Positions 32,633 to 53,744 are shown, counted from the stretch's first letter. The stretch: DNA of 64,000 nucleotides from Candidatus Poribacteria bacterium (GCA_022819945.1 JAJEGI010000108.1:136880-200879); one strand, 5' to 3'. Numbers and translations are program-made. The notes: a model not told the origin generated them from the letters alone.

Positions 32633-35026
32633 ATGAACAAAACCGACCTCCCAATCACAGAATTAAAAGCAACATTTCACGACGCGATCGCGATGGGTCC
32701 AGTAGTAATTGTAGCACCGACTGGTAGCGGAAAATCGACACAAATTCCGCCTTGGTGTGCCGCGCTATCAGATGCACCGGTGCTTGTCGTCGAACCGAGG
32801 CGCGTCGCATGCCGTTCACTTGCCCGATGGGTGGCACAACAACACGACGAACCGCTCGGACGTTCTGTCGGCTATACCGTACGTTTTGAGGACGTGAGTT
32901 CCGATACTTTAACCCGTATCCGTTTTGTTACGCCGGGTGTCGCCTTACGATATGCAGCGGGACCAGAATTAGATCAGTATGGCACCATCATTTTGGACGA
33001 ATTCCACGAGCGGGGTGTAGAGACAGACCTCTTTCTCGCTATCTGCCGAAAGAAACGACGCGACGCGAAACTTATTATCATGTCTGCCACGATAGCAGCA
33101 CAACAACTGGCTCGGTTCATTGATGGACAGGTACTACGGGGAGAAGGTCGCGTCTATCCTGTTGCAATGAGATACCTTGGTGGCGCAGTGGTTCCTACAT
33201 TGCATAATTTAGTAGAACGCGTCAAAAAAGGGATTAATCGCGCCCTCAAAGAGACCGATGGGAATATCTTAGTGTTCCTACCAGGTAAAGGTGAAATTAA
33301 TGCGTGCCACGATGCCGTGCGTAAGCTGCGGCATATCGAGTTTATCCCCCTACACGGTAATTTACCACCCGATGCACAAGATAGAGCATTTGACAACACG
33401 CACTCCCAACGCCGCCGCGTTATTCTTGCGACCAACGTCGCTGAGACATCAATCACGCTTCCCGGTATCACCGCTGTCGTGGATACCGGTTTGGTCCGTC
33501 AACGTATCCACCAAAACCGCCGTATCGTCCTTGCGTTGTGTCCGATCTCGCAAGCTTCAGCCGAACAACGCCGCGGACGCGCAGGTCGCCTCGGACCGGG
33601 AACCTGCTATAGACTCTGGGAGGAACACGGTCAACTTGAGCAGGAAACCACACCAGAGATTCGGCGGGAAGATTTGACACAATTCGTGCTGACTGTCGCT
33701 GCAACCGGCTATTGTCCGCAAGATTTGACGTTCCTCGATGCACCGCCGAACTTCGCTGTGGAACGCGCACAAACCGCTTTGAAAAGTTGGGGCATTCTCT
33801 CCGATGATGGCACCCTCACGTCAGAAGGCGCGAAGATATGTGCTTTACCCATCAGTCCACTTCACGCTCGACTCTTGGTAAAAGCACCCTCTTCTCTCCG
33901 ACGCGACCTAATTGATTTGATTGCGACCTTGGAGCGTCCTGCCCCTTTATGGCAGCGCATTGACCGTGTGCCAGCTGAACAGCAAGACACGGTTCGCGAA
34001 GCGCGCCAAAAAGAACTTTTTCGCGATGGATGCGATGCTACAACAGCCATCCGAACGCTGCGACACGGCGACAACAAACAGCATTATCTCCATAAAACAG
34101 CCCTTGCCGAATGCCGCAGCATCGCGACGCAGTTGAGAGATTTCTTCAAACTACCGCCTGTAACGAAAGATAAAGCATCTGTACAACCCGATCGCAACGC
34201 ATTGATTGCTTACCTCTTACGCGAATGGGATACCTATGCTTACGTCCGGAGACGGAAAGGTAAGGGATGGGGAAATGGACAGGAAGAGGTCTTACTCGAT
34301 TCTGATTCTCTCCTACCGGAAGATCGGCAAGCCGCTTTAATCTTGGAGACCGTCGGTATCGCAAAAGGGACGCGCGTGCAATTGATGGGACGCACTGCCA
34401 TGCCTTGTTCTTTTGACGATCTGATCAACGCGCGGATTGGAACTTCTCAACTCACTGCGCCGAGACTGGAAGGCGAAGACATTGTGGCAGAGGTGGTAAC
34501 TGAATATGCAGGCCGCGAGATCGGACGCAGTCGCCGACCGCTGAGCGGCAATCTGCTGAGAGAGGCGTTGGCATCCCTTATCCTCTCTGGTTCCCTATTC
34601 TCGGAAGTCGGTGCGCAACTTACCCGCGCGATTGACGCTTGGATACTTCATTGCGCACTCAACCCTGATATGAATGCCTCCGAGACAACAGATTTAACGC
34701 CGCACAGATGGTTGGTTTCACGGCTTGATGTCTTGGGTGTAGCGGTCGCTGAGGACTGGCAACTCCTTTCGCCAGAGGATTTGGTCTTTACAGAGATAGA
34801 CGCTGACACTATTGCTGAAATTGAGGCGCGGTATCCGAAGGAATTTTCTGTCAACGGTGCGAAGTTCAGTGTCGAATATGACCCCACAGAAAAACTTGTT
34901 ACGTTGCGGTGGGCGCGCGGTGTCCGTCAACCGACGCTGAGTACAGTCCTACTGCCGCGCTGGAATAATTGGAAGGTGCAAGTTGACGTTCGGGGGCAGC
35001 TACGGACGGTGCGTCCTACTTCTTAA
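32633..35026 (+). CDS. hrpB: ATP-dependent DExH RNA helicase, HrpB-like
   Basis: 797 residues. Helicase motifs in order: Walker A APTGSGKSTQIPPW, VVEPRRVACRSLARW (Ia), IILDEFHERGVETDLFLA (DEFH box), MSATIAA (III), FLPGKGEINACHDAVRKL (IV), ATNVAETSITLPGITAVVDT (V) and QRRGRAGRLGPGTCYRLW (VI). The C-terminal half has the helicase-associated domain and the HrpB-type tail (PLSGNLLREALASLILSG; VLLPRWNNWKVQVDVRGQ). Length fits HrpB (about 800-850). Its role in bacteria is poorly defined, with RNA metabolism likely. The stop codon overlaps that of the convergent TolB-like gene. Confidence 0.92.
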   Translation: MNKTDLPITELKATFHDAIAMGPVVIVAPTGSGKSTQIPPWCAALSDAPVLVVEPRRVACRSLARWVAQQHDEPLGRSVGYTVRFEDVSSDTLTRIRFVTPGVALRYAAGPELDQYGTIILDEFHERGVETDLFLAICRKKRRDAKLIIMSATIAAQQLARFIDGQVLRGEGRVYPVAMRYLGGAVVPTLHNLVERVKKGINRALKETDGNILVFLPGKGEINACHDAVRKLRHIEFIPLHGNLPPDAQDRAFDNTHSQRRRVILATNVAETSITLPGITAVVDTGLVRQRIHQNRRIVLALCPISQASAEQRRGRAGRLGPGTCYRLWEEHGQLEQETTPEIRREDLTQFVLTVAATGYCPQDLTFLDAPPNFAVERAQTALKSWGILSDDGTLTSEGAKICALPISPLHARLLVKAPSSLRRDLIDLIATLERPAPLWQRIDRVPAEQQDTVREARQKELFRDGCDATTAIRTLRHGDNKQHYLHKTALAECRSIATQLRDFFKLPPVTKDKASVQPDRNALIAYLLREWDTYAYVRRRKGKGWGNGQEEVLLDSDSLLPEDRQAALILETVGIAKGTRVQLMGRTAMPCSFDDLINARIGTSQLTAPRLEGEDIVAEVVTEYAGREIGRSRRPLSGNLLREALASLILSGSLFSEVGAQLTRAIDAWILHCALNPDMNASETTDLTPHRWLVSRLDVLGVAVAEDWQLLSPEDLVFTEIDADTIAEIEARYPKEFSVNGAKFSVEYDPTEKLVTLRWARGVRQPTLSTVLLPRWNNWKVQVDVRGQLRTVRPTS

Positions 35027-35982
35027 TCTGCTTTGATTTTTCCCCACGTTGTTGTGAGTAGATGTGGTTCTGGGGCAATGGATAAGCTCTTGGGATCGAA
35101 CCAACTGGGTGTGATGTTCCGTCCGCGGTGTGTCAGCTGCGTTTTTCCACCTGTCTCTACATCAACGACAGCGATTTGACGGTCTCTCTCTACGGCTTCT
35201 TCCACATAAACAATTTTATCCCCATCGGGTGACCATGCAGGATAGTAGGCAAGGGGTACCCGTTCACTCACCTGTCTCAAGCGGCTTCCGTCTCGATTTG
35301 CCACGAAAATGGCTGATTTGTTACGTAGCCCCCATTTGGACCAGGTAAAGGCGAGTTTGTCCCCCTTCGGTGACCATGAGGGTGTGTGCATCCACGGTGA
35401 TTCCTTAGGCAGAAACGTGCGTATATCGCCGGAATCGAGTTTTACGATAAAGATCCGATACGTGCCACCTGCGTCTTTAGCAAAGGCTATCTCGTTTCCG
35501 TTTGCCGACCAGGAAGGATTACCACCATGCGATTCTGCCAATGCGACCTGCTTGACATCTTCGCCGTGTATCGTAGCCGTTTGGATGCTCCATTGCGGTG
35601 TTTCGGCATGAAAGGCTATCCGCTCGCCATCTGGGGACCGCGTCGATTCCACGCGACGTGCTGCCTTCCTAAAAACTCGCCGGACACGGCTACCGTCGGC
35701 ATCCATCACATAGAGATCTCTAAACCCGTCCCGATCGGAAGTGAAAAGAATTTGTTCTCCTGTTGGTGACCAAACAGGACTGTGATCTAATGCGTTATTT
35801 CGGGTCAGTCGTTCTTGCTGACTCCCATTGGGATTCATCAGGTAAATTTCCCAATTGCCATCTCGATTCGATGCGAATGCGATTTTGGCGGTTTTCGGTG
35901 CTTGTGCGTGAATCTGACCGGCATAGATGAACGCAAGGATCAAATTGAGGTAACAAAAAAGGAAAAGATTTTTGATTTTCAT
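35023..35982 (-). CDS. secreted TolB-like beta-propeller with conserved C-terminal tail, copy 2
   Basis: 319 residues: signal segment LFLFCYLNLILAFIYAGQIHA, then WD40-like/TolB-type (PD40) blades such as IAFASNRDGNWEIYLMNPNG, PVWSPTGEQILFTSDRDGF, NPSWSANGNEIAFAKDAG and PAWSPDGDKIVYVEEA. The propeller is predicted periplasmic or secreted. The protein ends LLTTTWGKIKAD. This tail recurs on the paralogue upstream and on the unrelated LamG protein ending at 53744. It lies 36 bases after the first copy and ends the operon, overlapping the HrpB stop by four bases. Confidence 0.87.
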   Translation of the reverse strand: MKIKNLFLFCYLNLILAFIYAGQIHAQAPKTAKIAFASNRDGNWEIYLMNPNGSQQERLTRNNALDHSPVWSPTGEQILFTSDRDGFRDLYVMDADGSRVRRVFRKAARRVESTRSPDGERIAFHAETPQWSIQTATIHGEDVKQVALAESHGGNPSWSANGNEIAFAKDAGGTYRIFIVKLDSGDIRTFLPKESPWMHTPSWSPKGDKLAFTWSKWGLRNKSAIFVANRDGSRLRQVSERVPLAYYPAWSPDGDKIVYVEEAVERDRQIAVVDVETGGKTQLTHRGRNITPSWFDPKSLSIAPEPHLLTTTWGKIKAD

Positions 35983-36018: not shown

Positions 36019-36996
36019 TTAGTCTCGTACTTTCATTTTTCCCCAGACTGTTGTTAACAGGTGGTGTTGTGGCGCGACAGGTAGATTGTTTGGATTGAAC
36101 CAAGCAGCGGTCATGTTTGAACCTTGGTGTGTCAACTGTTTTTTTGTGCCGGTACGTACATCAACGGTAAGGATCTGTAAATTATCATCGTCAGCACGTT
36201 CGCTATAAACAAGTCTATCGCCTTCGGGAGACCATGCAGCAGGACCAAGGGATACCCGTGAAGGCTTACCAATCTGTTTCAACCCTCTTTCATCGCGATC
36301 CACAACGAATAGAGCATTTCCATTCCCTAAACCCCACTTGAGCCAAGTAAAGGCGAGCCTGTCCCCTGACGGAGACCATGCTGGCGCGTACATCCACGGC
36401 GTTTCGTGGGACAGGAATGTTCGTACTCTATTGGAACTGAGTGTGAGAATACGAATACGGCGGGTGTCATCAATATCGTCAACAAAGGCTATCTCGTTTC
36501 CATCGGGAGACCAAGATGGGTTACCCCCTTGCTGAACCACTACGGCTACCTCTTCCACATCTGTCCCATGTATCGTAGCGGTTTGGATGTTCCATTCAGG
36601 CTTCCATTGCGGCTTCTTTGTATGAAACGCGATTTTTTCGCCATCCGGCGACCAAGTCGGTTCTATCCTAAGCGCCGACTCCTTAAAAACGCGCTGAACC
36701 TGGCTGCCGTCGGCATCCATCACATAGAGATCGTGACCACCATCTCGATCTGAGACAAACAGAATTTGCTCTCCATTCGGAGACCAGACGGGACTAAGGT
36801 CTCTCGCGCTATTTTGGGTTAACCGTTTTTGCTGACTCCCATCCGGGTTCATCAGGTAAATTTCCCAATTGCCGTCTCGATTCGATGCAAACGCGATTTT
36901 TGCGGTTGTTGGTGCTTGTGCCCAAATCTGCGGGACTGGACTCAATACCAATCCCAAACCGAGGGAGAAAAAAACAAAAAGGCGGATATTTTTCAT
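36019..36996 (-). CDS. secreted TolB-like beta-propeller with conserved C-terminal tail, copy 1
   Basis: 325 residues, a close paralogue of the next gene (shared IAFASNRDGNWEIYLMNP, VWSPNGEQILFVSDRDGGHD, RTFLSHETPWMYAPAWSPSG). The signal segment is LFVFFSLGLGLVLSPVPQIW. About six PD40 blades follow. The C-terminus is LLTTVWGKMKVRD. Unlike E. coli TolB it has no distinct N-terminal alpha/beta domain, and no pal or tolA is nearby, so it is not TolB itself. Its ATG overlaps the stop of the upstream lipoprotein gene (ATGA), showing coupling to the lipoprotein operon. Confidence 0.87.
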   Translation of the reverse strand: MKNIRLFVFFSLGLGLVLSPVPQIWAQAPTTAKIAFASNRDGNWEIYLMNPDGSQQKRLTQNSARDLSPVWSPNGEQILFVSDRDGGHDLYVMDADGSQVQRVFKESALRIEPTWSPDGEKIAFHTKKPQWKPEWNIQTATIHGTDVEEVAVVVQQGGNPSWSPDGNEIAFVDDIDDTRRIRILTLSSNRVRTFLSHETPWMYAPAWSPSGDRLAFTWLKWGLGNGNALFVVDRDERGLKQIGKPSRVSLGPAAWSPEGDRLVYSERADDDNLQILTVDVRTGTKKQLTHQGSNMTAAWFNPNNLPVAPQHHLLTTVWGKMKVRD

Positions 36997-37898
36997 TCTG
37001 ATTCAATCCTTTTGAAAGTGCATCTTAACCCGCCGGTTCGTATCCAACCTCTCGGTGTTAGCTGCATATCCCCGTAGAGCACTAAAGAGAGTGTATCCTC
37101 TGTCACCGTAATCCCTGGCATCGAAGATATTGTGCGCGATGTCGCCTTTAAAGCACCTTTTCGATTGAACTTTTGTGTCATCTCAACTCGCTTCTGTTTT
37201 TGCTTCGCGGTTATCTGTTTTATGGCTTCGGAACCGAAAAGGAATTCGAGCAATTCTGGTCCTGTCCGCTGATTAAAACGGATAAATGTGAGCGGATCGT
37301 CTCCGTATCGCTTCGTGGTGACATAACACTGCCCGGTGACGTTCGTACCGCGATTGCTACCGCTGTAATAGTAAGAACTCCGATCCTCTGAAAATTCGAG
37401 GACGAGATTTTTGCGGGTAGACGCAACAAGTGCCGCTTTCGCACCTAATATTTGTTGATTTGATTTCTCATCTGTAACCTCAATAGGTGGCAGGCGCGTC
37501 GCGCCTTCTCCCAATTCTGAGTTTTGTTCCTGATCTTCTTTTTCGTTCGATGCTGTTGCTTCTTGTTCAGGTGTATTAGGTGCTATTGCCTGTTCACCCG
37601 TACCACCTTTAGAAAGTCCTTCTATAGTAGTACCCAGTGAATCCATCATCTGTTGCGGCATCGACTTCGTCGGATTTGCGTAAACATTCCCCTCTTCCAC
37701 CTCTAACCCAACATACTGCCACTTACCGACGAGAAGATCCTTCACCGCCTGTTTAACGCTTTCTGGATTGTGCCGCTCGCGTACAGCGTCACGCATCGCG
37801 AGCAAACGCCGTCGCTCTTCCTGCGTCTCTTGCGGCGTAAAGATCGCACAACTCGTAAAAACCATCGCTATAATACTGAACATTGCTAACGTTTTCAT
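36993..37898 (-). CDS. lipoprotein of a three-member paralogous family, long form
   Basis: 301 residues with lipoprotein signal MKTLAMFSIIAMVFTSC. A charged helix follows (QETQEERRRLLAMRDAVRER), then the family block LLVGKWQYVGLEVEEGNV, a low-complexity linker rich in Gln, Glu and Asn (about residues 85-150), and a C-terminal beta-rich domain ending LTPRGWIRTGGLRCTFKRIE. Both the GKWxxxGLE block and the GWIxxGGxRCxF ending recur in the next two genes. I recognise no named family. AGGAGGAGAAT lies before the ATG. Confidence 0.8.
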   Translation of the reverse strand: MKTLAMFSIIAMVFTSCAIFTPQETQEERRRLLAMRDAVRERHNPESVKQAVKDLLVGKWQYVGLEVEEGNVYANPTKSMPQQMMDSLGTTIEGLSKGGTGEQAIAPNTPEQEATASNEKEDQEQNSELGEGATRLPPIEVTDEKSNQQILGAKAALVASTRKNLVLEFSEDRSSYYYSGSNRGTNVTGQCYVTTKRYGDDPLTFIRFNQRTGPELLEFLFGSEAIKQITAKQKQKRVEMTQKFNRKGALKATSRTISSMPGITVTEDTLSLVLYGDMQLTPRGWIRTGGLRCTFKRIESE

Positions 37899-37937
37899 CC
37901 CAATTCTCCTCCTTTATTCAAAACAAATTTAATCTTC

Positions 37938-38549
37938 TTATTTGATCTGTTTGAAGGAATACCTGATACCGTCGCTTTGGACCCACCCCGCAGGCGTCAG
38001 TCCCACACCGGCTCCCAACGTCAGGTGAAGTTGATTTTCCTGGACAGAAATTAAAACATTGGATGCTCCGGGCGGACCACTGAATATCTCCGCCGAACGA
38101 TCACTAAATAAAAACGCCCCAGGCGTAATGCCTGAACTCTGATCCATGCAAAGTTCGGGGTATAGAACCTCAGCGATCCGTTCAACGTAAATCGAGAATT
38201 CACCCGTAACCCTGATACTGCCGTTTTTACCTTCATAAAAACGGATGCCGTTCTGTTCAAAAAAGCGGATCGTCAGGTGCTTACGACTCAATTCATCAAG
38301 GGCAATAGTAGCACTCTCAATTTCATTACTCAAATCACTTGCTAAGACCTCTATACCAAGAAACTGCCATGTTCCGAGTATTTCTTGCTCAAGCGTGTCT
38401 TTCCGAATCCGCCTGTCGTTCTTTACCCGCGCTTCTTCGTATGCCGCGCGAAGTCGTTCCCGCTCGTTCTGCATCTGCTGGTATTCCGCTGAGGTACAAC
38501 CCGCAAAAACCGTCAGTATTATCAAACTAAAAGCAGTTAGTATTTTCAT
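37938..38549 (-). CDS. lipoprotein of a three-member paralogous family, short form
   Basis: 203 residues: signal MKILTAFSLIILTVFAGC, a coiled-coil stretch (YQQMQNERERLRAAYEEARV), the family block EILGTWQFLGIEVLASDL, and the ending LTPAGWVQSDGIRYSFKQIK. A middle part, ARKHLTIRFFEQN-like (actual: LSRKHLTIRFFEQNGIRFYE), resembles the equivalent LTLEFFKEKNIYHYRGK of its neighbour. Its ATG overlaps the stop of the upstream paralogue (ATGA). It is probably exposed in the periplasm or on the outer membrane. Function unknown. Confidence 0.8.
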   Translation of the reverse strand: MKILTAFSLIILTVFAGCTSAEYQQMQNERERLRAAYEEARVKNDRRIRKDTLEQEILGTWQFLGIEVLASDLSNEIESATIALDELSRKHLTIRFFEQNGIRFYEGKNGSIRVTGEFSIYVERIAEVLYPELCMDQSSGITPGAFLFSDRSAEIFSGPPGASNVLISVQENQLHLTLGAGVGLTPAGWVQSDGIRYSFKQIK

Positions 38550-39175
38550 TCCTCCACCCTCTCAAAATAACAACGCACGCCACCACTCTGTACCCAGCCA
38601 GCCGGACCTGATTGCATCTTACCGTGCATTGTAAGATACAGTCTGTCAGGCGTAACCGAGATACCAATATCCCGCGCTGTGCCGAATCCCGGTGCGCTCG
38701 ACAATCCAAGTGCTCTTCCATCTGCGCTTGCCGCGAAGAGGAGTTGCTCCATCTCTGGACCGGTGCGTCTAATGAATCGAATAAACGGGAACGGTTCATC
38801 GCCGTACCGAACAGTGATAACAGTAAATTGACCGAATACCTCTATCCCACCGCGCTTGCCTCGGTAATGGTAGATGTTTTTCTCCTTAAAGAATTCGAGT
38901 GTGAGATTTTGTAGTTCAAGGGCATAAAGTGCGGCTTTGGCTTCCGCAACCTCTTGGGTAACGTCGCTCTCCGCCATCTCAAGGCTCAGAAATTTCCACT
39001 TTCCGAGGAGTGTATCAGTGATACTGTTTTTTAGTTTCAGTTCACTGTTTTCTTCGCGGAGGTCTTCGTAATTTTTGAGCAGCTGATCGCGTTCCGCTTG
39101 CATTTTCTGGTATTCGGCACTCGTGCAGCCAATGAATATCAGAATGCAGATACCAAAGGTTACCAAGATTTTCAT
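38546..39175 (-). CDS. lipoprotein of a three-member paralogous family, first gene of operon
   Basis: 209 residues: signal MKILVTFGICILIFIGC, coiled coil (YQKMQAERDQLLKNYEDLRE), block LLGKWKFLSLEMAESDVTQE, then QNLTLEFFKEKNIYHYRGKR, FTVITVRYGDEPFPFIRFIR, and the ending GPAGWVQSGGVRCYFERVEE. The segment RYGDEPFPFIRFxxRTGPE also occurs in the long paralogue as RYGDDPLTFIRFNQRTGPE, so homology is firm. The tight ATGA overlaps and short gaps from here to 35023 indicate one leftward operon of three lipoproteins and two propellers. Confidence 0.8.
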   Translation of the reverse strand: MKILVTFGICILIFIGCTSAEYQKMQAERDQLLKNYEDLREENSELKLKNSITDTLLGKWKFLSLEMAESDVTQEVAEAKAALYALELQNLTLEFFKEKNIYHYRGKRGGIEVFGQFTVITVRYGDEPFPFIRFIRRTGPEMEQLLFAASADGRALGLSSAPGFGTARDIGISVTPDRLYLTMHGKMQSGPAGWVQSGGVRCYFERVEE

Positions 39176-39280
39176 AGGTATTTTCCTTGTTGGATGGATG
39201 TGCAGGGTGTCTACTCCGTGCTACAGTTGTATTATATCAGAACCTCTTATAAATGGCAAACCTCGAATTGGGGACGCGCT

Positions 39281-39454
39281 GCTGGCGGGGTTCTATGAAG
39301 ATTAATTTATTAATTCGGTAATTTTTGATCGAAGTCCGGTGCGGTTGCAAACCGTGAAGAAATCCGCAGAAACACCCAAGCAAAAACCCTGCGGGGCCTG
39401 GGGGAACATGGAATTACCGATTTATTTTCTTAAACTTCATTAAACCCCGCCAGC
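39281..39454. repeat. imperfect inverted repeat with 43-base arms enclosing a family D motif
   Basis: The left arm (39281-39323) runs from GCTGGCGGGGTT through ATGAAG to AATTCGGTAATT. The right arm (39412-39454) reads AATTACCGA through CTTCAT to AACCCCGCCAGC. Between them lies a family D-like core, GTCCGGTGCGGTTGCAAACC, and CCCAAGCAAAAACCCTGCGG. This fills much of the 430-base gap between the lipoprotein operon and the TonB receptor gene. No ORF is evident. Confidence 0.7.
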
Positions 39455-39605: not shown

Positions 39606-42113
39606 TTAAAATTCGAGCGTTAGTCCGAAGTAGGGGATCCGAGGGAATTGGGGTGCGTCGAAGACATCACGTTCAATCTCAACCGCCTCGCCTTGAACCT
39701 CAAGTGTTGCCTCTTCAAAAATGAATTTTATAGTATTTTTGCGGTTGTATACATTCAGGATTTCAATGAACCCGCCTATTTTTATGCCTTTGACATTCCA
39801 TTTATAACTTATCCGGATATCTAATTTGTGGTAAGGTTCAAGTTCGGTACTTAATTGTTCGTCAGCACTCGCCAAAAGCGGGTTTAAGCCGCGCGTGACC
39901 GGGTCTTGAATCAGGGCGACAGCACTGATAGGCACCTCGGAAGTACCGCTTAAATACTGCCACTTCCCACCGATCTCGAAATTGGGGGTGAAAGTGTAGT
40001 TGGCGACGAGGCTAAGGATGTGCGTGTTATCAAATAGATAAGGTTGATAGGCATATAATATATGCTCGCGCCGCTCGGCGTGCGTATAGGCATACGAGAT
40101 CCAACCGAAAAACTTATCCGGAATCCGATGTCGCAGAAATGCCTCCGCTCCTACAACGTCCCCCATACCTTCATTGAGATAGTTTGGGAGCTCATCGAAT
40201 GGTGCGAGCGAAAGTGATCTTACTTCTGGTGCGAGCGAAAGTGATCGGACCTCTTCATCGCTCTCTTCATAGAGTGAAGCCAGTGAAGACTTGGTTACTA
40301 CTAATTTCTGAGCGTCTTTGAAATAGGTAGCGAACTTGAGTTCGGTGCGTGATGAGAGTTCGTGTTCAAGTTCCATAATATAGTGGCGTGTGAGGCTCGA
40401 TTTCAAACCACGGTTGCCGTCGTCCGCGAGCAACTGATACGGTAGCGGGCTCTGTTCATAGTGTCCATACGCGAAACGGAGGTTGGAACCACTGGGCAGC
40501 TGGAGACTCATGCTTCCGCGCGGTTGAATAGAGAGTTGCTCCGTCACATTCAGATAATCTAATCGCACGCCGAGTGCTACCGATAGGAATTCAAGTGGAT
40601 CGTATCGTCCTTGTAGGTATACTTCAGTCCGATAAAAATCGTGTCCGAACTCATCATGGATTTCTTCTACACCGCTTAATTCATAGTCTGGTCCAACATA
40701 AACCTCTTCACCTATAACCTCTCCATCCTCAATGATCGGTGTGACATTTGTTACATCTTCACCGCTCGTTTCATACTCTGGAAACCTGCCGTCTTCAAAA
40801 CTGTTTGCGGGACTAAATGAAAAGAGGAAACCGGGTTCAAGTTGAAAGGTAGGCGTGAGTTTATAGGATATATCCTCTCGTAGCGTGTAGACTGGCACTT
40901 TTACATTTACGTCGTAGTGGGCGTAGTCTACTTCGTCTAACACCCATTCGCCTTCAGGGGTCAGCGTGTAAGACTCGGAGACGAGGCCTTTAAAATTTAT
41001 GGTGAGGAAATTGAAGGCACGGGTGAGCGATAGATGTGAGGTCAGATTTTCAGTGAAGTCTGAACGGAGATGAATACCTTGCCCATTAAAACCGTTTTTG
41101 AATAAGGCAGAAGAGGGTGCTGCTTCTATCGCGTCAGCACCTTCTGGCTGCGTGTCTTCCACAATTTTAAAATGGTCGGTTGCAGCGAGTGCGTTGAGGG
41201 TGAGGTGATGTTTTTCACCGAACGGGCGGGCAAATTTGAGTTGATAATCTGAAAAGTAGGGAAATTGTTGTTCCTGTCCTGTCTGGGCTTCAATGATCGG
41301 TCCGGCGATGAGGTCTAAGTAGCTGCGTCGTCCCGAGACAGAAAAGTAGTTCTTATCACCGATTTTGGTTTCAAGCAACCCTTCAGAGTAGAGGATATTC
41401 AGGTTAAATTTTCCGCTGAATCGCTCATCAATGCTGTCGCGTGCGTGGATGTCAAGCACGGCTTGCGAGTCCAACCCGAATTCGGCACCGTAACCGCCTG
41501 CGTAGATGTCGATTTCTTCAATCGTTTCTGAACTGATGGTTGAAAGTAAACCGCCCCAATGAAACGGGTACCCGAGCGGCGTTCGATCGAGGTAATAAAG
41601 GTTGGAACCCGGTTCACTGCCACGGATGTAAAGCACGCCAAAATAATCGTTTGGAATCCCGATGCTTGGAAGCGTCGTCAATCCTTTGAGCGCGTCATTA
41701 GCAGCACCCGGAATGCGTAGGAGTTCGCTGCCGCGGATTTCGGTGCGACTGATGGTTGGCGGCAGACGTTTCCCTTCTACAACGATTGTTTCCAATTTTA
41801 CTGCTTCACCGAGGTAAATTTTGATTTCGGTGGTATCCCCGCTGCTAATCTCAACGGCGACCGCTGTGGGTGCCGTTTCAGTCGGATGGGTAACAACGAA
41901 AGTATATGTGCCTTCTGGGAGTTCCGTGAATTGAAAGCTGCCGTTTTCATCGGTTTTTTGGGTCTGTTTTGTTTCGGTAATTCGGACCTCTGCCCCAGCC
42001 AGAGGTCTCCCATTACTTCGCTGATAGACTGTTCCTTGGATGTCCCCTGTTTGAGATAGGACAGAAAAAGGCCCCATGAACACAAATAGAAAAGTAATCA
42101 ATTTTAATTTCAC
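39606..42113 (-). CDS. TonB-dependent receptor with N-terminal carboxypeptidase-regulatory-like domain
   Basis: About 835 residues. The GTG at 42113 is preferred because GAGGT lies upstream and it opens a proper signal peptide (LKLITFLFVFMGPFSVLS); the frame extends upstream to 42164 without support. Domains in order: CarboxypepD_reg-like (GDIQGTVYQRSNGRPLAGAE), plug domain (LKGLTTLPSIGIPNDYFGVL, YIRGSEPGSNLYYLDRTPLG), then a barrel ending in an aromatic residue (YFGLTLEF). It is an outer-membrane importer or ligand receptor; the substrate is unknown. An extracellular stretch contains the tandem repeat EVRSLSLAPEVRSLSLAP. No tonB or exbBD is nearby. Confidence 0.92.
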   Translation of the reverse strand: MKLKLITFLFVFMGPFSVLSQTGDIQGTVYQRSNGRPLAGAEVRITETKQTQKTDENGSFQFTELPEGTYTFVVTHPTETAPTAVAVEISSGDTTEIKIYLGEAVKLETIVVEGKRLPPTISRTEIRGSELLRIPGAANDALKGLTTLPSIGIPNDYFGVLYIRGSEPGSNLYYLDRTPLGYPFHWGGLLSTISSETIEEIDIYAGGYGAEFGLDSQAVLDIHARDSIDERFSGKFNLNILYSEGLLETKIGDKNYFSVSGRRSYLDLIAGPIIEAQTGQEQQFPYFSDYQLKFARPFGEKHHLTLNALAATDHFKIVEDTQPEGADAIEAAPSSALFKNGFNGQGIHLRSDFTENLTSHLSLTRAFNFLTINFKGLVSESYTLTPEGEWVLDEVDYAHYDVNVKVPVYTLREDISYKLTPTFQLEPGFLFSFSPANSFEDGRFPEYETSGEDVTNVTPIIEDGEVIGEEVYVGPDYELSGVEEIHDEFGHDFYRTEVYLQGRYDPLEFLSVALGVRLDYLNVTEQLSIQPRGSMSLQLPSGSNLRFAYGHYEQSPLPYQLLADDGNRGLKSSLTRHYIMELEHELSSRTELKFATYFKDAQKLVVTKSSLASLYEESDEEVRSLSLAPEVRSLSLAPFDELPNYLNEGMGDVVGAEAFLRHRIPDKFFGWISYAYTHAERREHILYAYQPYLFDNTHILSLVANYTFTPNFEIGGKWQYLSGTSEVPISAVALIQDPVTRGLNPLLASADEQLSTELEPYHKLDIRISYKWNVKGIKIGGFIEILNVYNRKNTIKFIFEEATLEVQGEAVEIERDVFDAPQFPRIPYFGLTLEF

Positions 42114-42137
42114 GTATTTTTTTGACCTCGGTTCATA

Positions 42138-42258
42138 GTAAAACCTATAATTACTTGGGCGCACTCAAACAGTCTGAGTGCCTATGACAGGCATTCAGAC
42201 TGGCACAGCCTAACAGGTTATGGGACAAAGATGTCTATTTATTTTTAGGATTCACTAT
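42138..42258. repeat. family B MITE-like element, copy 2
   Basis: Begins ATAGTAAAACCTATAATTAC and ends AGGATTCACTATAG; the two ends are imperfect inverted repeats (ATAGTaAAaCC against ATAGTGAATCC). The interior has CACTCAAACAGTCTGAGTGCC and ACTGGCACAGCCTAACAGG, matching the copy at 21086-21208. It sits just upstream of the TonB receptor start, overlapping its leader. Confidence 0.7.
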
Positions 42259-42547: not shown

Positions 42548-43561
42548 TTATTCCTGATGTAGCGTAACGGATCTGCGGGGTGGACTAAATTCCTGCTCTG
42601 TCAAGGGTACCGCCTGTTTCTGATAGACCTGTACCCGATAGGATCCGAAGTCCGGTACGAACATCAACCCGTCATCACTGACTGCGACGGATTTTGGTTG
42701 GCGCAAGTATTTCTGTGGTTCGAGGTCTGCCATGTCTCGCATCCGATTCGGACTGGCGTTTGTCATCATATACGCCTGTGATACCTTCGATAGGGTGGCA
42801 TCGCCGAGGAATTTCTGTACATACCCACCTTCGGCGTTAAAGAGTTGTATGCGGTCGTTGCCTCGGTCAGCAATATAGACATCGCCGTGCAGGTCAATGT
42901 CAATCCCGGCGGGACGGTTGAATTCGCCGTTGCCGCTGCCGGATTTACCGAATGCGAAGAGAAATTCACCGTCGGCATTAAACTTCTGTACCCTGTCGTT
43001 TCGCCAATCCACAACGTAGACATCGCCGAGTTCATCTACAGCGACACCCCACGGCATGTTGAATTCGCCTTCACCGTCGCCATAACTGCCCCACCCGAAG
43101 AGGAACTTTCCATCTTTCGTGAACTTCTGCACCCGGTGGCTCAGACTGTCAACGACATAGAGGTTTTCCTCCGAATCGAAGGCGATCCCCGCGGGTCCGT
43201 TGAGTTGTCCGGGCTCGGTGCCGTGTTCTCCCCATGTCCCGATGTGTTCACCTTCGCTGTTAAAGGCGACAATCCGATGCAGGAATTCATCGGACACATA
43301 GAGGTTTTCTTCGCTGTCGGGGATAATCGTCACGGGCCATGTGAATTGACCATCGCCTTGTCCGTAGCCGCCCATTGTGCCGCGATCTTCGTCATCAACA
43401 GTATATTTGCGGATCATCGCGGTGCCGTCGCTCCGGCACATAATATAGATACGTCCCTCTTTTCCGATGGCGATGTCAATCGGAAAGTTTGTTGTCCGCC
43501 GCATGCTTAGGGTCTTGTGAAATGGAAACCCGGCACGCAGTAATCCATAAGGTCTGCCCAT
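42548..43561 (-). CDS. NHL-repeat beta-propeller protein
   Basis: 337 residues with clear NHL blades: LNGPAGIAFDSEENLYVVDS, HRVQKFTKDGKFLFGWGSYG, FNMPWGVAVDELGDVYVVDW, RVQKFNADGEFLFAFGKSG, and FNRPAGIDIDLHGDVYIADR, making about six blades. No signal peptide is seen at the start MGRPYGLLRAGFPFHKTLS. AGGAGGC precedes the ATG. It is the third gene of a leftward operon after DUF1800 and DUF1501 genes, 17 bases from the latter. NHL proteins often act as binding scaffolds or lyase-type enzymes; function here is unknown. Confidence 0.88.
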   Translation of the reverse strand: MGRPYGLLRAGFPFHKTLSMRRTTNFPIDIAIGKEGRIYIMCRSDGTAMIRKYTVDDEDRGTMGGYGQGDGQFTWPVTIIPDSEENLYVSDEFLHRIVAFNSEGEHIGTWGEHGTEPGQLNGPAGIAFDSEENLYVVDSLSHRVQKFTKDGKFLFGWGSYGDGEGEFNMPWGVAVDELGDVYVVDWRNDRVQKFNADGEFLFAFGKSGSGNGEFNRPAGIDIDLHGDVYIADRGNDRIQLFNAEGGYVQKFLGDATLSKVSQAYMMTNASPNRMRDMADLEPQKYLRQPKSVAVSDDGLMFVPDFGSYRVQVYQKQAVPLTEQEFSPPRRSVTLHQE

Positions 43562-43578
43562 AATATGCCTCCTGAGTC

Positions 43579-44718
43579 TTAGGAAAATGGATGAATCTGT
43601 TCAAAATTTCCGCCAACAATATGGGTCGGATCAACGCCCATCCACTGCTCTAAGAGTGTCCCGTATATCCCGCGAAAGTCAATGGTGTGCTCAAGGTCTT
43701 CACCGTGTACCCAGCGCGCAGGATCAAGGGAAGGATATTCTGAGTAGAGTCCACCTTTCACCCGATCACCAATGATGAACGCACCGCCGCCGGTACCGTG
43801 GTCTGTGCCGCTGGCGTTGTCTCGGATACGTCTGCCGAATTCTGTGAAAACGTACATGACGATTTCTTCGGAGGCGTTCTGGGCGCGCAAATCGGTGAAG
43901 AACGCTTGGATCGCCTCTGTCAAATCTTTCAGGAGGCGTGGGTGCGCAGGGACTTCGTTGGCGTGGTTGTCATATCCGCCGTGTTGTGTGTAAAAGACGC
44001 GTGTGCCGAGATCAGCGAGGTGGACGCGTGCGACATCGCGTAGGCTTTTGGCGATGGAACTTTGTGGGTATTCTACTTCAGAGGTATACATCTCCGGTGC
44101 CTTCTTAAGCTCGTCCGCGCCCTTAATCACATCTAATCCGGTTTGGCTGAGATAGTCCATCACAATGCCGGTACCAACCGTGGTGCTGTACATCTTCTTG
44201 AATACGTCAAGTGCCTTCGTGCGCTGTCCTTCATCGCCGATGCTGGTCATCAGTCCGTAGTTATCCAGATCGCCAACGGACGTAACAGGGATACCGGAGA
44301 GTGCACAGGCGCGCGGGAGTCCCTGCCCGAAACTGACGCACGTTAGAACATTCTGGCTTTGCGGGTCCAGTTCTCGGACGAGTCTGCCGACCCAACCTTC
44401 ATCGCCGATTTTCAGGGGTTCACAGGTGTGCCAGATGTCCATCGCTCGGAAATGCGAGCGGTTTGAATCCGGGTAGCCGATCCCCTGTACAACGGCGACA
44501 TCACCGGCATCAAACATTTCTTTAAGTGGGGCGGCGTGTGGGTTCCATCCCAATGTATCGTCTACCTCTAACGGTATGACATCTTCCGCTTTAATGCCGA
44601 CAACCGGACGGGAATCGTGGTAAATCCCGCTTGTGTAGGGGATGAGTGTGTTCATGAAGTCGTTGCCACCTGTGAGTTGTACAACGACGAGGACCGGGGC
44701 TTTTTTTGTAGTACTCAT
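43579..44718 (-). CDS. DUF1501 family protein
   Basis: 379 residues, with the DUF1501 pattern VLVVVQLTGGNDFMNTLIPY near the start, DVAVVQGIGYPDSNRSHFRA, VFYTQHGGYDNHANE and YVFTEFGRRIRDNASGTDHG (metal-type Asp and His residues of an alkaline-phosphatase/sulfatase-like fold), then GGAFIIGDRVKGGLYSEYPS. Many relatives carry a Tat signal, but none is visible here. It lies 38 bases after the DUF1800 gene, the standard partnership in several bacterial phyla. The enzymatic activity is unproven. Confidence 0.92.
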   Translation of the reverse strand: MSTTKKAPVLVVVQLTGGNDFMNTLIPYTSGIYHDSRPVVGIKAEDVIPLEVDDTLGWNPHAAPLKEMFDAGDVAVVQGIGYPDSNRSHFRAMDIWHTCEPLKIGDEGWVGRLVRELDPQSQNVLTCVSFGQGLPRACALSGIPVTSVGDLDNYGLMTSIGDEGQRTKALDVFKKMYSTTVGTGIVMDYLSQTGLDVIKGADELKKAPEMYTSEVEYPQSSIAKSLRDVARVHLADLGTRVFYTQHGGYDNHANEVPAHPRLLKDLTEAIQAFFTDLRAQNASEEIVMYVFTEFGRRIRDNASGTDHGTGGGAFIIGDRVKGGLYSEYPSLDPARWVHGEDLEHTIDFRGIYGTLLEQWMGVDPTHIVGGNFEQIHPFS

Positions 44719-44756
44719 GTCAACGTCTCCTATGTTCGGTCCAGTGCCACAAAAGG

Positions 44757-46145
44757 TTAGCCGAACTGATATTCTCTTGATGCCACAATTAACTGGAGCA
44801 TACTGACGAGCAGTGCTTGGTTCTCCTCCGCAGCGTCATCATCTTCAAAATTGATCTCACCGTTTGCCTCCGCAAATTCGGTTAAATACTGACGCGTGGT
44901 ATCTCCTATTAACAACGGGCCGGCAAACTCAAGGCAACTCTCCACAAATGCTTCTGGTGAGAGTGGGTTTCCGTTATCTTTCAGGCGTACAATGATGCTC
45001 TGAATGCCGGGTTTAGAAGCGTCACTGACTTCGCGAACAGCAAAGTTGACACGAGCGGTAAGCAACCCGCCGTCAATCCACTCTTTACCAGTGTGCCAGC
45101 CTTCTACAGTGGGCGGATCAAGCAGTTTCTGACCCATCAATTGCGTAGCACTCGCATATTGATTCATTCCGGGTTCTGGACCACTTTGGAACGTCCCTAT
45201 CAGTTTCAAAATACCTGTGGCGAGTTCTGTCGGACTTTTTACCTTCTTAAATTGGGCTTCTTTAAAGAAGTCGGCATTGAAGAGTATGCCCAGGACGTGC
45301 GATATATCTCCGTCGGACGCTATGAATGCGTTCGCAAGTGTCTCAATCGCGTCTGGATCTTGCGGGGGTGTCACATTCCATGACGGTACCTGCGGTTCAT
45401 CTGCGACAAAGAAATTGTAAAGGTGTCTGGAGATAAATCTGGCGCAAGCGGGTTGTTCGACGATGATGTTAATGATGTCATCACCGTTAAGATTCCCGGT
45501 ATGCCCCAAGAAGGTTTTTTCGCTGTTGTCATGTTCCTCTTCAACGAATAGGAAAGGCGGCGCGTAGTAACCGTGCGGATACAACGGAATCGGTTGTCCA
45601 AAGGTCCAACCCGTAAAGGCGAGCGCGCAGTTCTTGATGTCGTCTTCCGTGTAGTTACCTACACCGAGTGAAAAGAGTTCAAGGAGTTCTCTGCCGTAAT
45701 TTTCGTTGGGTTCACCTTTACGATTTTCGTTGTTGTCAAGCCAGAAGATCATCGCCGGATCTTTGGAGAGTTCAAGTAGAATGTCTCGCATCTTCCCCAT
45801 TCCGACGCGCCGAAGCATATCAATCTGGTTGGTGGATGCGAGGATATGCTGATTTTTGCCCAACCCCGTCGCGAAGACATGATGCCAGAAGAGTGCCATC
45901 TTCTCTTGCAGTGGGCATCTGCTGTTCAGCATCCGATAGATCCAAGTGCCGACATATCCGCCTTCACTACCGAAATAGCGTTCTAAAATGTCTTCATCAA
46001 TGGGGGTCCCGCGTTCAGGATGGACGAGGTCGTCAACTACGTTCTCGTAGCCTTTTTCGACGTAGGCTTCCAGTTCGGTGCGGGTTGTTCCAAACCCTGC
46101 GCGGCGCATGAGGTGCGCCATTAACGCAACATCGTTCTGTGACAT
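44757..46145 (-). CDS. DUF1800 family protein
   Basis: About 462 residues: AHLMRRAGFGTTRTELEAYV, LFWHHVFATGLGKNQHI, NENYGRELLELFSLGVGNYT, AFTGWTF, FLGHTGNLNGDDIINIIVEQ, ARFISRHLYNFFVADEP, and KLLDPPTVEGWHTGKEWID are all signature parts of DUF1800. The start at 46145 follows a perfect GGAGGTGAAC; the frame extends to 46232 without support. It is the first gene of the DUF1800-DUF1501-NHL operon behind the promoter at 46291-46318. The cassette is thought to act on extracellular substrates, but I know of no proven function. Confidence 0.92.
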   Translation of the reverse strand: MSQNDVALMAHLMRRAGFGTTRTELEAYVEKGYENVVDDLVHPERGTPIDEDILERYFGSEGGYVGTWIYRMLNSRCPLQEKMALFWHHVFATGLGKNQHILASTNQIDMLRRVGMGKMRDILLELSKDPAMIFWLDNNENRKGEPNENYGRELLELFSLGVGNYTEDDIKNCALAFTGWTFGQPIPLYPHGYYAPPFLFVEEEHDNSEKTFLGHTGNLNGDDIINIIVEQPACARFISRHLYNFFVADEPQVPSWNVTPPQDPDAIETLANAFIASDGDISHVLGILFNADFFKEAQFKKVKSPTELATGILKLIGTFQSGPEPGMNQYASATQLMGQKLLDPPTVEGWHTGKEWIDGGLLTARVNFAVREVSDASKPGIQSIIVRLKDNGNPLSPEAFVESCLEFAGPLLIGDTTRQYLTEFAEANGEINFEDDDAAEENQALLVSMLQLIVASREYQFG

Positions 46146-52850: not shown

Positions 52851-53744
52851 ATGGGACACCGACAGATGTTTATATACCTCTTTTTGGTAGCACTGATGCC
52901 GCTGAGTGCTAAAGCATTCCCACCGGTTTCACCGGCAGGTGGCAACTATTTAGTCCTTGACGGGGTTGATGACTATGCTGTTTTGGATTTTGAAACCTTT
53001 GGTTATCTCTTACCGGATGGCACAGACGAATTTACCTTTGAAGCATGGATATATCTCACCGCACCGCCCGACAAAAAGGACACGACGGTATTGGTAATAC
53101 TCCATCAACAGGTGGATATGGTCATCGTGAATAATGAAGGTCAATTCAATGAACTGGCGAATGTGATAAATACCGATCCGCCGAAGGGGGACCTCGTCTT
53201 GCAAATGAATTCCTATCTTGATGGCAAGTTTGGTCGGACGTTGGCTTTCCCGATCTCGCTTGAGCTGAACCAGTGGTACCATATCGCTCATCAGGTAAAA
53301 GGGAATCAGGTAACGGCGATCGTCAATGATTTCGGGGGGACACATCAACACGGTCAACCGCTCGGCCATGATCGTGATCCTCGTAATTTGCGTCCAAAGG
53401 ACTTCGTGCTTGGCGGGTTTGGAGAGATAATTGTGATGCCTGGTCGTCCGCCAGCCAAAGCGTTTTTGGATTCCTTCACTGGCTATATTGATGAGGTTCG
53501 TATCTCAGCGGTGGCGCGTTACGATGTTGAGAAAAAGGGTTTCATGCCGCGCGGCAAGTTCAAAAACGACGCGAAGACGGTTGCATTGTGGCATTTTGAT
53601 GAACCCGGTGGCACACAGGAATTCTTAGATGCCTCGCGCAATGGACATCATCTGGCGGGTAAAAATGGCGCAAAGATTGGGAACGCGCTTGCTGTCAAAG
53701 TAGAAGAAAAACTCACCACAACATGGGGACGACTTAAACAATGA
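52851..53744 (+). CDS. secreted LamG/concanavalin A-like domain protein with conserved C-terminal tail
   Basis: 297 residues from ATG 52851 (AAGGAGATAAAA directly upstream; the frame extends to 52797). Signal peptide MGHRQMFIYLFLVALMPLSA. The LamG-type jelly roll is shown by LVLDGVDDYAVLDF, FTFEAWIYLTAPP, LELNQWYHIAHQVKGNQVTA, GYIDEVRISAVARYDVEKKG and TVALWHFDEPGGTQEFLDAS. The last residues KLTTTWGRLKQ repeat the tail of the TolB-like proteins at 35023 and 36019. Its stop overlaps the ATG of a small membrane ORF (ATGA), which is in turn followed by the second ECF fusion, suggesting one coupled operon. Confidence 0.85.
   Translation: MGHRQMFIYLFLVALMPLSAKAFPPVSPAGGNYLVLDGVDDYAVLDFETFGYLLPDGTDEFTFEAWIYLTAPPDKKDTTVLVILHQQVDMVIVNNEGQFNELANVINTDPPKGDLVLQMNSYLDGKFGRTLAFPISLELNQWYHIAHQVKGNQVTAIVNDFGGTHQHGQPLGHDRDPRNLRPKDFVLGGFGEIIVMPGRPPAKAFLDSFTGYIDEVRISAVARYDVEKKGFMPRGKFKNDAKTVALWHFDEPGGTQEFLDASRNGHHLAGKNGAKIGNALAVKVEEKLTTTWGRLKQ

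Follow-up and report, generated by a model that had tools for sequence, protein, structure and literature searches.

The lipoprotein genes A, B and C of the window (the whole 64,000-nucleotide stretch of DNA analysed here, from a genome of Candidatus Poribacteria bacterium) belong to a real, new, lineage-specific protein family. On the reading that we prefer, and to which we would give about an even chance, they encode secreted lipoproteins whose calycin-like β-barrel likely binds small ligands at the outer membrane. A sequence-only reading of the same DNA had found "no recognized family" for the trio. That is right at the level of sequence; the fold is probably familiar. Because the predicted fold is a familiar one, A, B and C are to be thought of as a new branch of a known kind of binding protein rather than as a new machine: their array does not amount to a new type of system.

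Three paralogous lipoproteins and their relatives

Gene A (38546-39175, minus strand, as are B and C) specifies a 209-aa lipoprotein with its lipobox Cys at position 17, a helix at approximately residues 20-56 and a predicted eight-stranded calycin-like domain at 57-209; B (37938-38549) and C (36993-37898) specify paralogues of 203 and 301 aa, respectively. The signals FIGC (A) and FAGC (B), each followed by Thr, and FTSC (C), followed by Ala, bear out the sequence-only reading's claim of three consecutive lipoprotein genes, and its claim of paralogy also holds: A is 39% identical to B (E 3.8e-37 in a search of the genome) and 42% identical to C, which places their kinship far beyond chance. 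There are no further copies in the host genome, where all five matches at E<=10 fall at this locus. The closest relative of gene A is 91% identical, and its nearest relatives are all from Poribacteria.

Some finer features of the trio need qualification. ATGA overlaps join A to B (38546-38549) and C to the propeller gene that follows it, TolB1 (36993-36996), but 39 nt separate B from C, so that the coupling proposed for the whole trio fails at one of its two junctions. The block written as LLG(K/T)W(K/Q)xLxLE is present in all three proteins, with real variation (LLGKWKFLSLE, ILGTWQFLGIE, LVGKWQYVGLE); the RYGD..RTGPE block is confined to A and C, just as had been noted. The GWxxxxGxRCxF ending is likewise present, except that the C-terminal block of B, GWVQSDGIRYSF, has Tyr where the RC motif has Cys. 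C also carries a low-complexity insertion of approximately 75 residues, placed between the first strand and the next helix, and an extra Cys (in GQC).

A six-frame protein search covered 85 genomes of the phylum. The family turns up in 46 of them, all within one taxonomic family: 37 of 38 genomes in the window's genus, 3 of 3 in two further genera, and 6 of the 18 in a fourth (g4). A 56-member profile run over the phylum added no more distant groups and nothing outside that taxonomic family. Members of the window's genus have arrays of two to six copies, with compositions (a few of them from loci cut by contig ends) that range from A-B or A-C to A-B2-C-C-B-C; 29 junctions in the arrays are at -4, that is, ATGA-coupled, and gene A heads all 31 arrays. 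A tree of 124 sequences splits into groups A, B, B2, C, C2 and D on mostly well supported branches, the support values being rough because the bootstrap had not fully settled. The lipobox pattern [LVIFT][ASTVG][GAS]C is matched in 114 members, with Thr, Ala or Gly at the next position (+2) in 111 of these; the ORFs that fall outside the pattern mostly have lipoboxes that depart from its residue set or position (CVGC, LSGC, IWAGC), and one is a fragment.

The Cys content of the cropped barrel follows the groups: one (in RCxF) in A, where it is invariant, and likewise in B2, D and the g4 members; mostly none in B; and exactly two (GQC and RCxF) in the C group, in 36 of the 36 proteins in the tree. 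A family-wide disulfide, considered as a candidate, is ruled out by the single Cys of A, B2 and D; a lineage-specific disulfide in group C, which alone regularly has two, is possible on these sequences.

Is the family really uncatalogued? A, B and C, searched as single proteins and as profiles, have no sequence match in Pfam, NCBIfam or PDB, and no lipocalin-clan Pfam match is listed among the 56 and 48 members tested. What did come up was set aside: matches to DivIC (E 0.019), FtsL_broad (E 0.014) and SA0632 involve the helical N-terminus only and amount to coiled-coil-like or signal-peptide similarity, and PDB matches to alginate lyase and aggrecan are at chance level (E 0.4-1.3). The host does have a catalogued lipocalin of its own, a Lipocalin_4 protein (PF13648, found once in the host genome, at L101; Lipocalin_5 is confined to two genomes of the phylum). 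Like A, B and C it is a lipoprotein, has a GTW start and contains a largely β domain, but it lacks the sequence blocks of the new family, and hhalign against the Lipocalin_4 proteins of the phylum, albeit with a profile of only 3 sequences, gives a probability of 0.4%; kinship was not found. The proposal of a new lipoprotein family thus stands as far as Pfam and NCBIfam are concerned, and for a family confined to one family of Poribacteria, but not for the predicted fold, which has precedent. The sequence-only reading had conceded that a match to a lipocalin-like family would make the trio ordinary; there is no such match at the level of sequence, but the fold prediction comes close to "lipocalin-like".

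A predicted calycin-like barrel

AlphaFold2 models of full-length A (56 sequences; pLDDT 82.0, pTM 0.72) and of its barrel alone (48 sequences; pLDDT 82.7, pTM 0.82) agree with each other: eight strands in order, the first two of them separated by a helix. (In the model of A, helices span residues 2-42 and 45-56, and strands span 58-67, 92-98, 101-108, 111-124, 127-138, 170-174, 178-190 and 193-207.) The full-length model places a long helix after the lipid-bearing Cys, ahead of the domain. Structure prediction had been suggested at the outset as a check on the C-terminal domain, and the expectation that it would be β-rich is upheld (eight strands at pLDDT 82-83), with calycins as its Foldseek matches. 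In searches of PDB, every one of the 50 listed matches to the barrel model is a calycin of the FABP/CRBP type; for the full-length model the figure is 49 of 50, and the remaining match is a tardigrade SAHS protein. The Foldseek probabilities are 0.97-1.00, but E values of ~1e-3, TM scores of 0.3-0.5 and rmsd of 6-12 Å make this a general resemblance of fold rather than a close one.

The best-matching proteins themselves are only distantly comparable. FABP and CRBP are like A in predicted strand order and in the helix after the first strand, at 9-13% identity and TM ~0.5 or below; however, FABPs, which are cytosolic and come from animals, have ten strands and two lid helices, while A has eight predicted strands and one helix. 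Other counterparts are found among the bacterial calycin-fold lipoproteins, YxeF of B. subtilis and Blc of E. coli, which share with A, B and C secretion as a lipoprotein, a Gly-X-Trp close to where strand A begins and an Arg on the last strand; YxeF is also a small β-barrel without a C-terminal helix (PMC3367933), as is predicted for A, B and C. Conversely, A, B and C cannot be linked by sequence to any catalogued lipocalin family, and they add a helix of ~35 residues between lipid anchor and predicted barrel, a helix between strands 1 and 2, and an arrangement in tandem arrays of diverged copies.

Calycins may share no detectable sequence similarity with one another; their signature is a Gly-X-Trp on strand A together with a last strand that carries Arg or Lys (PMC3367933, PMC2954199). 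The new family has both. Calycins are further marked by a closed up-and-down barrel of eight antiparallel strands, a contact between the Trp and the Arg, and a short 3-10 helix as a cap; in the full-length model of A the helix at 45-56 comes ahead of strand A. G58 and W60 are kept by all aligned members, 56 of 56 in one alignment and 53 of 53 in another (these two alignments being the only ones that bear on invariance, since the larger, 124-row alignment was cropped on G.W), and strand A of the model starts at residue 58. Position 206, on the last strand (193-207), is Arg in 114 and Lys in 6 of the 124 rows (Arg or Lys in 120 of 124); position 201 is also Arg in 114 of 124, which leaves R206 and R201 as candidates for the stacking residue.

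Might the domain nevertheless have some other, mostly antiparallel β fold, with AlphaFold2 and Foldseek responding to a generic meander? TM scores below 0.5 to nearly all matches at the E values just cited, an alignment depth of only 48-56 related sequences, and the lack of any profile match to the lipocalin clan all allow it. That two separate models agree, that virtually every listed match is to one type of superfamily at high probability, and that the superfamily's own sequence signature is found at the expected places make it improbable. The calycin-like fold is a prediction with moderate support, and with the same moderate support the domain of A, B and C probably works like a calycin.

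Promoter and neighbors of the array

A σ70-type extended -10 promoter is predicted at 39231-39259 (minus strand; TTGCCA-17 nt-TATAAT, with TG-N before TATAAT), 84 nt ahead of A's ATG. It scores 11/12, and an extended -10 site of this form is unique in the 64-kb window, both strands considered. The strict form, TTGNNA-17-TATAAT, is found at 23 of 31 homologous loci, at 22 of them 60-99 nt before A and at the other (L036) 148 nt before A, owing to an insertion; three further loci retain the extended -10 without the strict form. Judged by its sequence, this promoter would make A the first gene of the array's own transcript.

The gene directly upstream of the array, here and in about 26 of 31 loci, encodes a TonB-dependent-receptor-like protein (39606-42164, minus strand) composed of CarboxypepD_reg, plug and barrel domains, for which a search of PDB sequences gives no match at E<=0.001. 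A single operon of receptor and lipoprotein genes was considered and set aside in favor of separate units: because the conserved promoter sits between receptor and A, the receptor gene is probably transcribed separately. The two genes are 430 nt apart in the window, as compared with ~90-110 nt in insertion-free relatives, because a dispersed inverted-repeat element (39281-39454; 43-nt arms, 81% complementary, flanking an 88-nt center; 69 full or partial matches in the host genome) has landed in the space that separates the receptor gene from A's promoter, leaving the promoter intact. Another locus (L055:5750-6010) has a different short element (TATAGTAAAACTT...GTTTCACTATA) that, by comparison with relatives, apparently lies inside the promoter of A, between its -35 and -10 elements.

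Farther upstream, and also on the minus strand, lie genes for an NHL propeller (42548-43561), a DUF1501 protein (43579-44718) and a DUF1800 protein (extending to 46.1 kb). This DUF1800-DUF1501-NHL cassette (42548-46145) is kept upstream of the receptor gene at most loci with enough sequence, at ~79-97% identity between species; DUF1800/DUF1501 pairs of unknown function occur in other bacteria (PMC5122149).

Downstream, the trio is followed, as the sequence-only reading had it, by two tailed TolB-like propellers: TolB1 (36019-36996; PF07676, E 1.5e-34) and TolB2 (35023-35982; PF07676, E 2.1e-34), both PD40 β-propellers encoded on the minus strand, 62% identical to each other, the former with a Sec-type signal peptide. 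They are not the TolB of the Tol-Pal system, which is full-length with an N-terminal domain: against TIGR02800 they score 204.4 and 178.5 bits, below the cut-off of 343.15, and they cover only the propeller half of that profile (best stretch within positions 243-402 of 418), with no match to its N-terminal domain. The gene beyond the propellers, on the opposite strand, encodes what we take, from sequence features, to be a HrpB-type helicase.

A survey of operon conservation, also suggested at the outset, shows A at the head of every array and finds a TolB-type propeller next after the array at 22 of the 25 loci with enough downstream sequence; the propellers are missing at L035, L058 and L061. 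This adjacency is modest evidence of cooperation, because PD40 propellers related to TolB1 and TolB2 are common in the host genome (36 matches, at many loci). Nor is the gene context universal: in g4 the single-copy member is preceded not by a receptor gene but by genes for ThuA, a mandelate-racemase-like enzyme (MR_MLE) and an unknown protein, although at one such locus (L089) a TolB1-like propeller is again next.

These facts bear directly on the envelope complex that the trio had been thought to form. In its most explicit version, A, B and C would join with the TolB propellers, by way of the lipoproteins' helices, in a structural or scaffolding hetero-oligomer, an accessory of the Tol-Pal kind with no small ligand. 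Co-directional and often ATGA-coupled genes, propellers that adjoin the array, and an amphipathic helix after the lipid anchor, with its weak coiled-coil-like matches to DivIC and FtsL_broad, speak for such a complex. Species differ in copy number, from 2 to 6, and the propellers can be missing, both of which argue against fixed stoichiometry; the single-copy members in g4 and the commonness of the propellers weigh further on the same side, and we regard the complex as rather unlikely.

The two propellers end with TTVWGKMK (TolB1) and TTTWGKIK (TolB2). Tails of this TTWGxIK type are found in the window at 35023-35055, 36019-36055 and 53718-53741 (the last on the plus strand), in each case at the extreme C-terminal end. 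A codon pattern for TTWGxIK has 23 matches in the host genome (L104-L126), as compared with none in a reversed control; in 22 of the 23 a stop is no more than 1-6 residues away, and nearly all the proteins concerned, propellers and other secreted proteins among them, have an apparent signal peptide, the exception (L126) being a 41-aa open stretch. Of 83 genomes across the phylum, 80 have the tail. An NCBIfam scan of TolB1 and TolB2 matched no tail model, and a brief literature search found no paper on the TTWGxIK tail. A 2014 study noted T9SS-type (TIGR04183) tails unaccompanied by the secretion genes (PMC3909097); TTWGxIK looks different from these, and its placement makes it look like a candidate C-terminal sorting or anchoring tag.

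What the barrels might do

The ligand-binding role that we prefer would work as follows. Cleavage by signal peptidase II would leave a lipidated Cys anchoring the ~35-residue helix that carries the small calycin-like β-barrel, predicted to consist of eight antiparallel strands in lipocalin order. The array's transcript would begin at its own near-consensus extended -10 promoter and would also cover one or two genes for secreted TolB-type propellers. By the +2 rule for lipoprotein sorting, which is an E. coli rule, the residue after the Cys, being Thr, Ala or Gly and not Asp, leads one to expect retention in the outer rather than the inner membrane. There, on the periplasmic or the surface side, each barrel would bind one small, probably hydrophobic ligand, and gene duplication would have provided different specificities in the diversified copies A, B, B2, C, C2 and D, with A as the constant core member. 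Gene order suggests that the lipoproteins may cooperate with the propellers and the receptor.

Small anchored barrels that multiply and diverge could be put to other uses. Some bacterial calycin-fold proteins inhibit enzymes, the metalloprotease inhibitor Inh being an example, and A, B and C might be calycin-type surface inhibitors aimed at lysozymes or proteases, whether from the sponge host or from competing organisms, with the paralogues directed at different enzymes. The lipoprotein anchor, the small barrel and the diversification of paralogues fit, as does the fact that the bacteria concerned are sponge-associated (PMC3909097). However, there is no match to known inhibitor families, conservation is concentrated on structural residues, and the context of receptor and propellers gives no hint of inhibition; inhibitors are, in our judgment, distinctly improbable.

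A bolder extension of the ligand-binding role would assemble the array, the TTWGxIK-tailed propellers and the TonB-dependent receptor into a surface capture-and-uptake apparatus of sponge-associated Poribacteria. Just as SusD-type lipoproteins serve SusC, A, B and C would present ligands to the receptor, with an unrelated fold, and the set of paralogues would decide what is taken up. We put this forward as a long shot.

Whatever their function, these are envelope lipoproteins of an uncatalogued, lineage-specific family in dominant, uncultivated sponge-associated bacteria, and fold prediction, residue signature and promoter together make the family testable. If the barrels do bind ligands, then arrays of two to six copies would record how close relatives diversify cell-surface binding.

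Two diverged, stand-alone A-like copies lie away from the array, at L093:8342-9031 and L094:9193-9882 (genomes G072 and G063). Of the two, the copy included in the tree sits on a long branch (1.06 changes per column); such copies are perhaps decaying or neofunctionalized.
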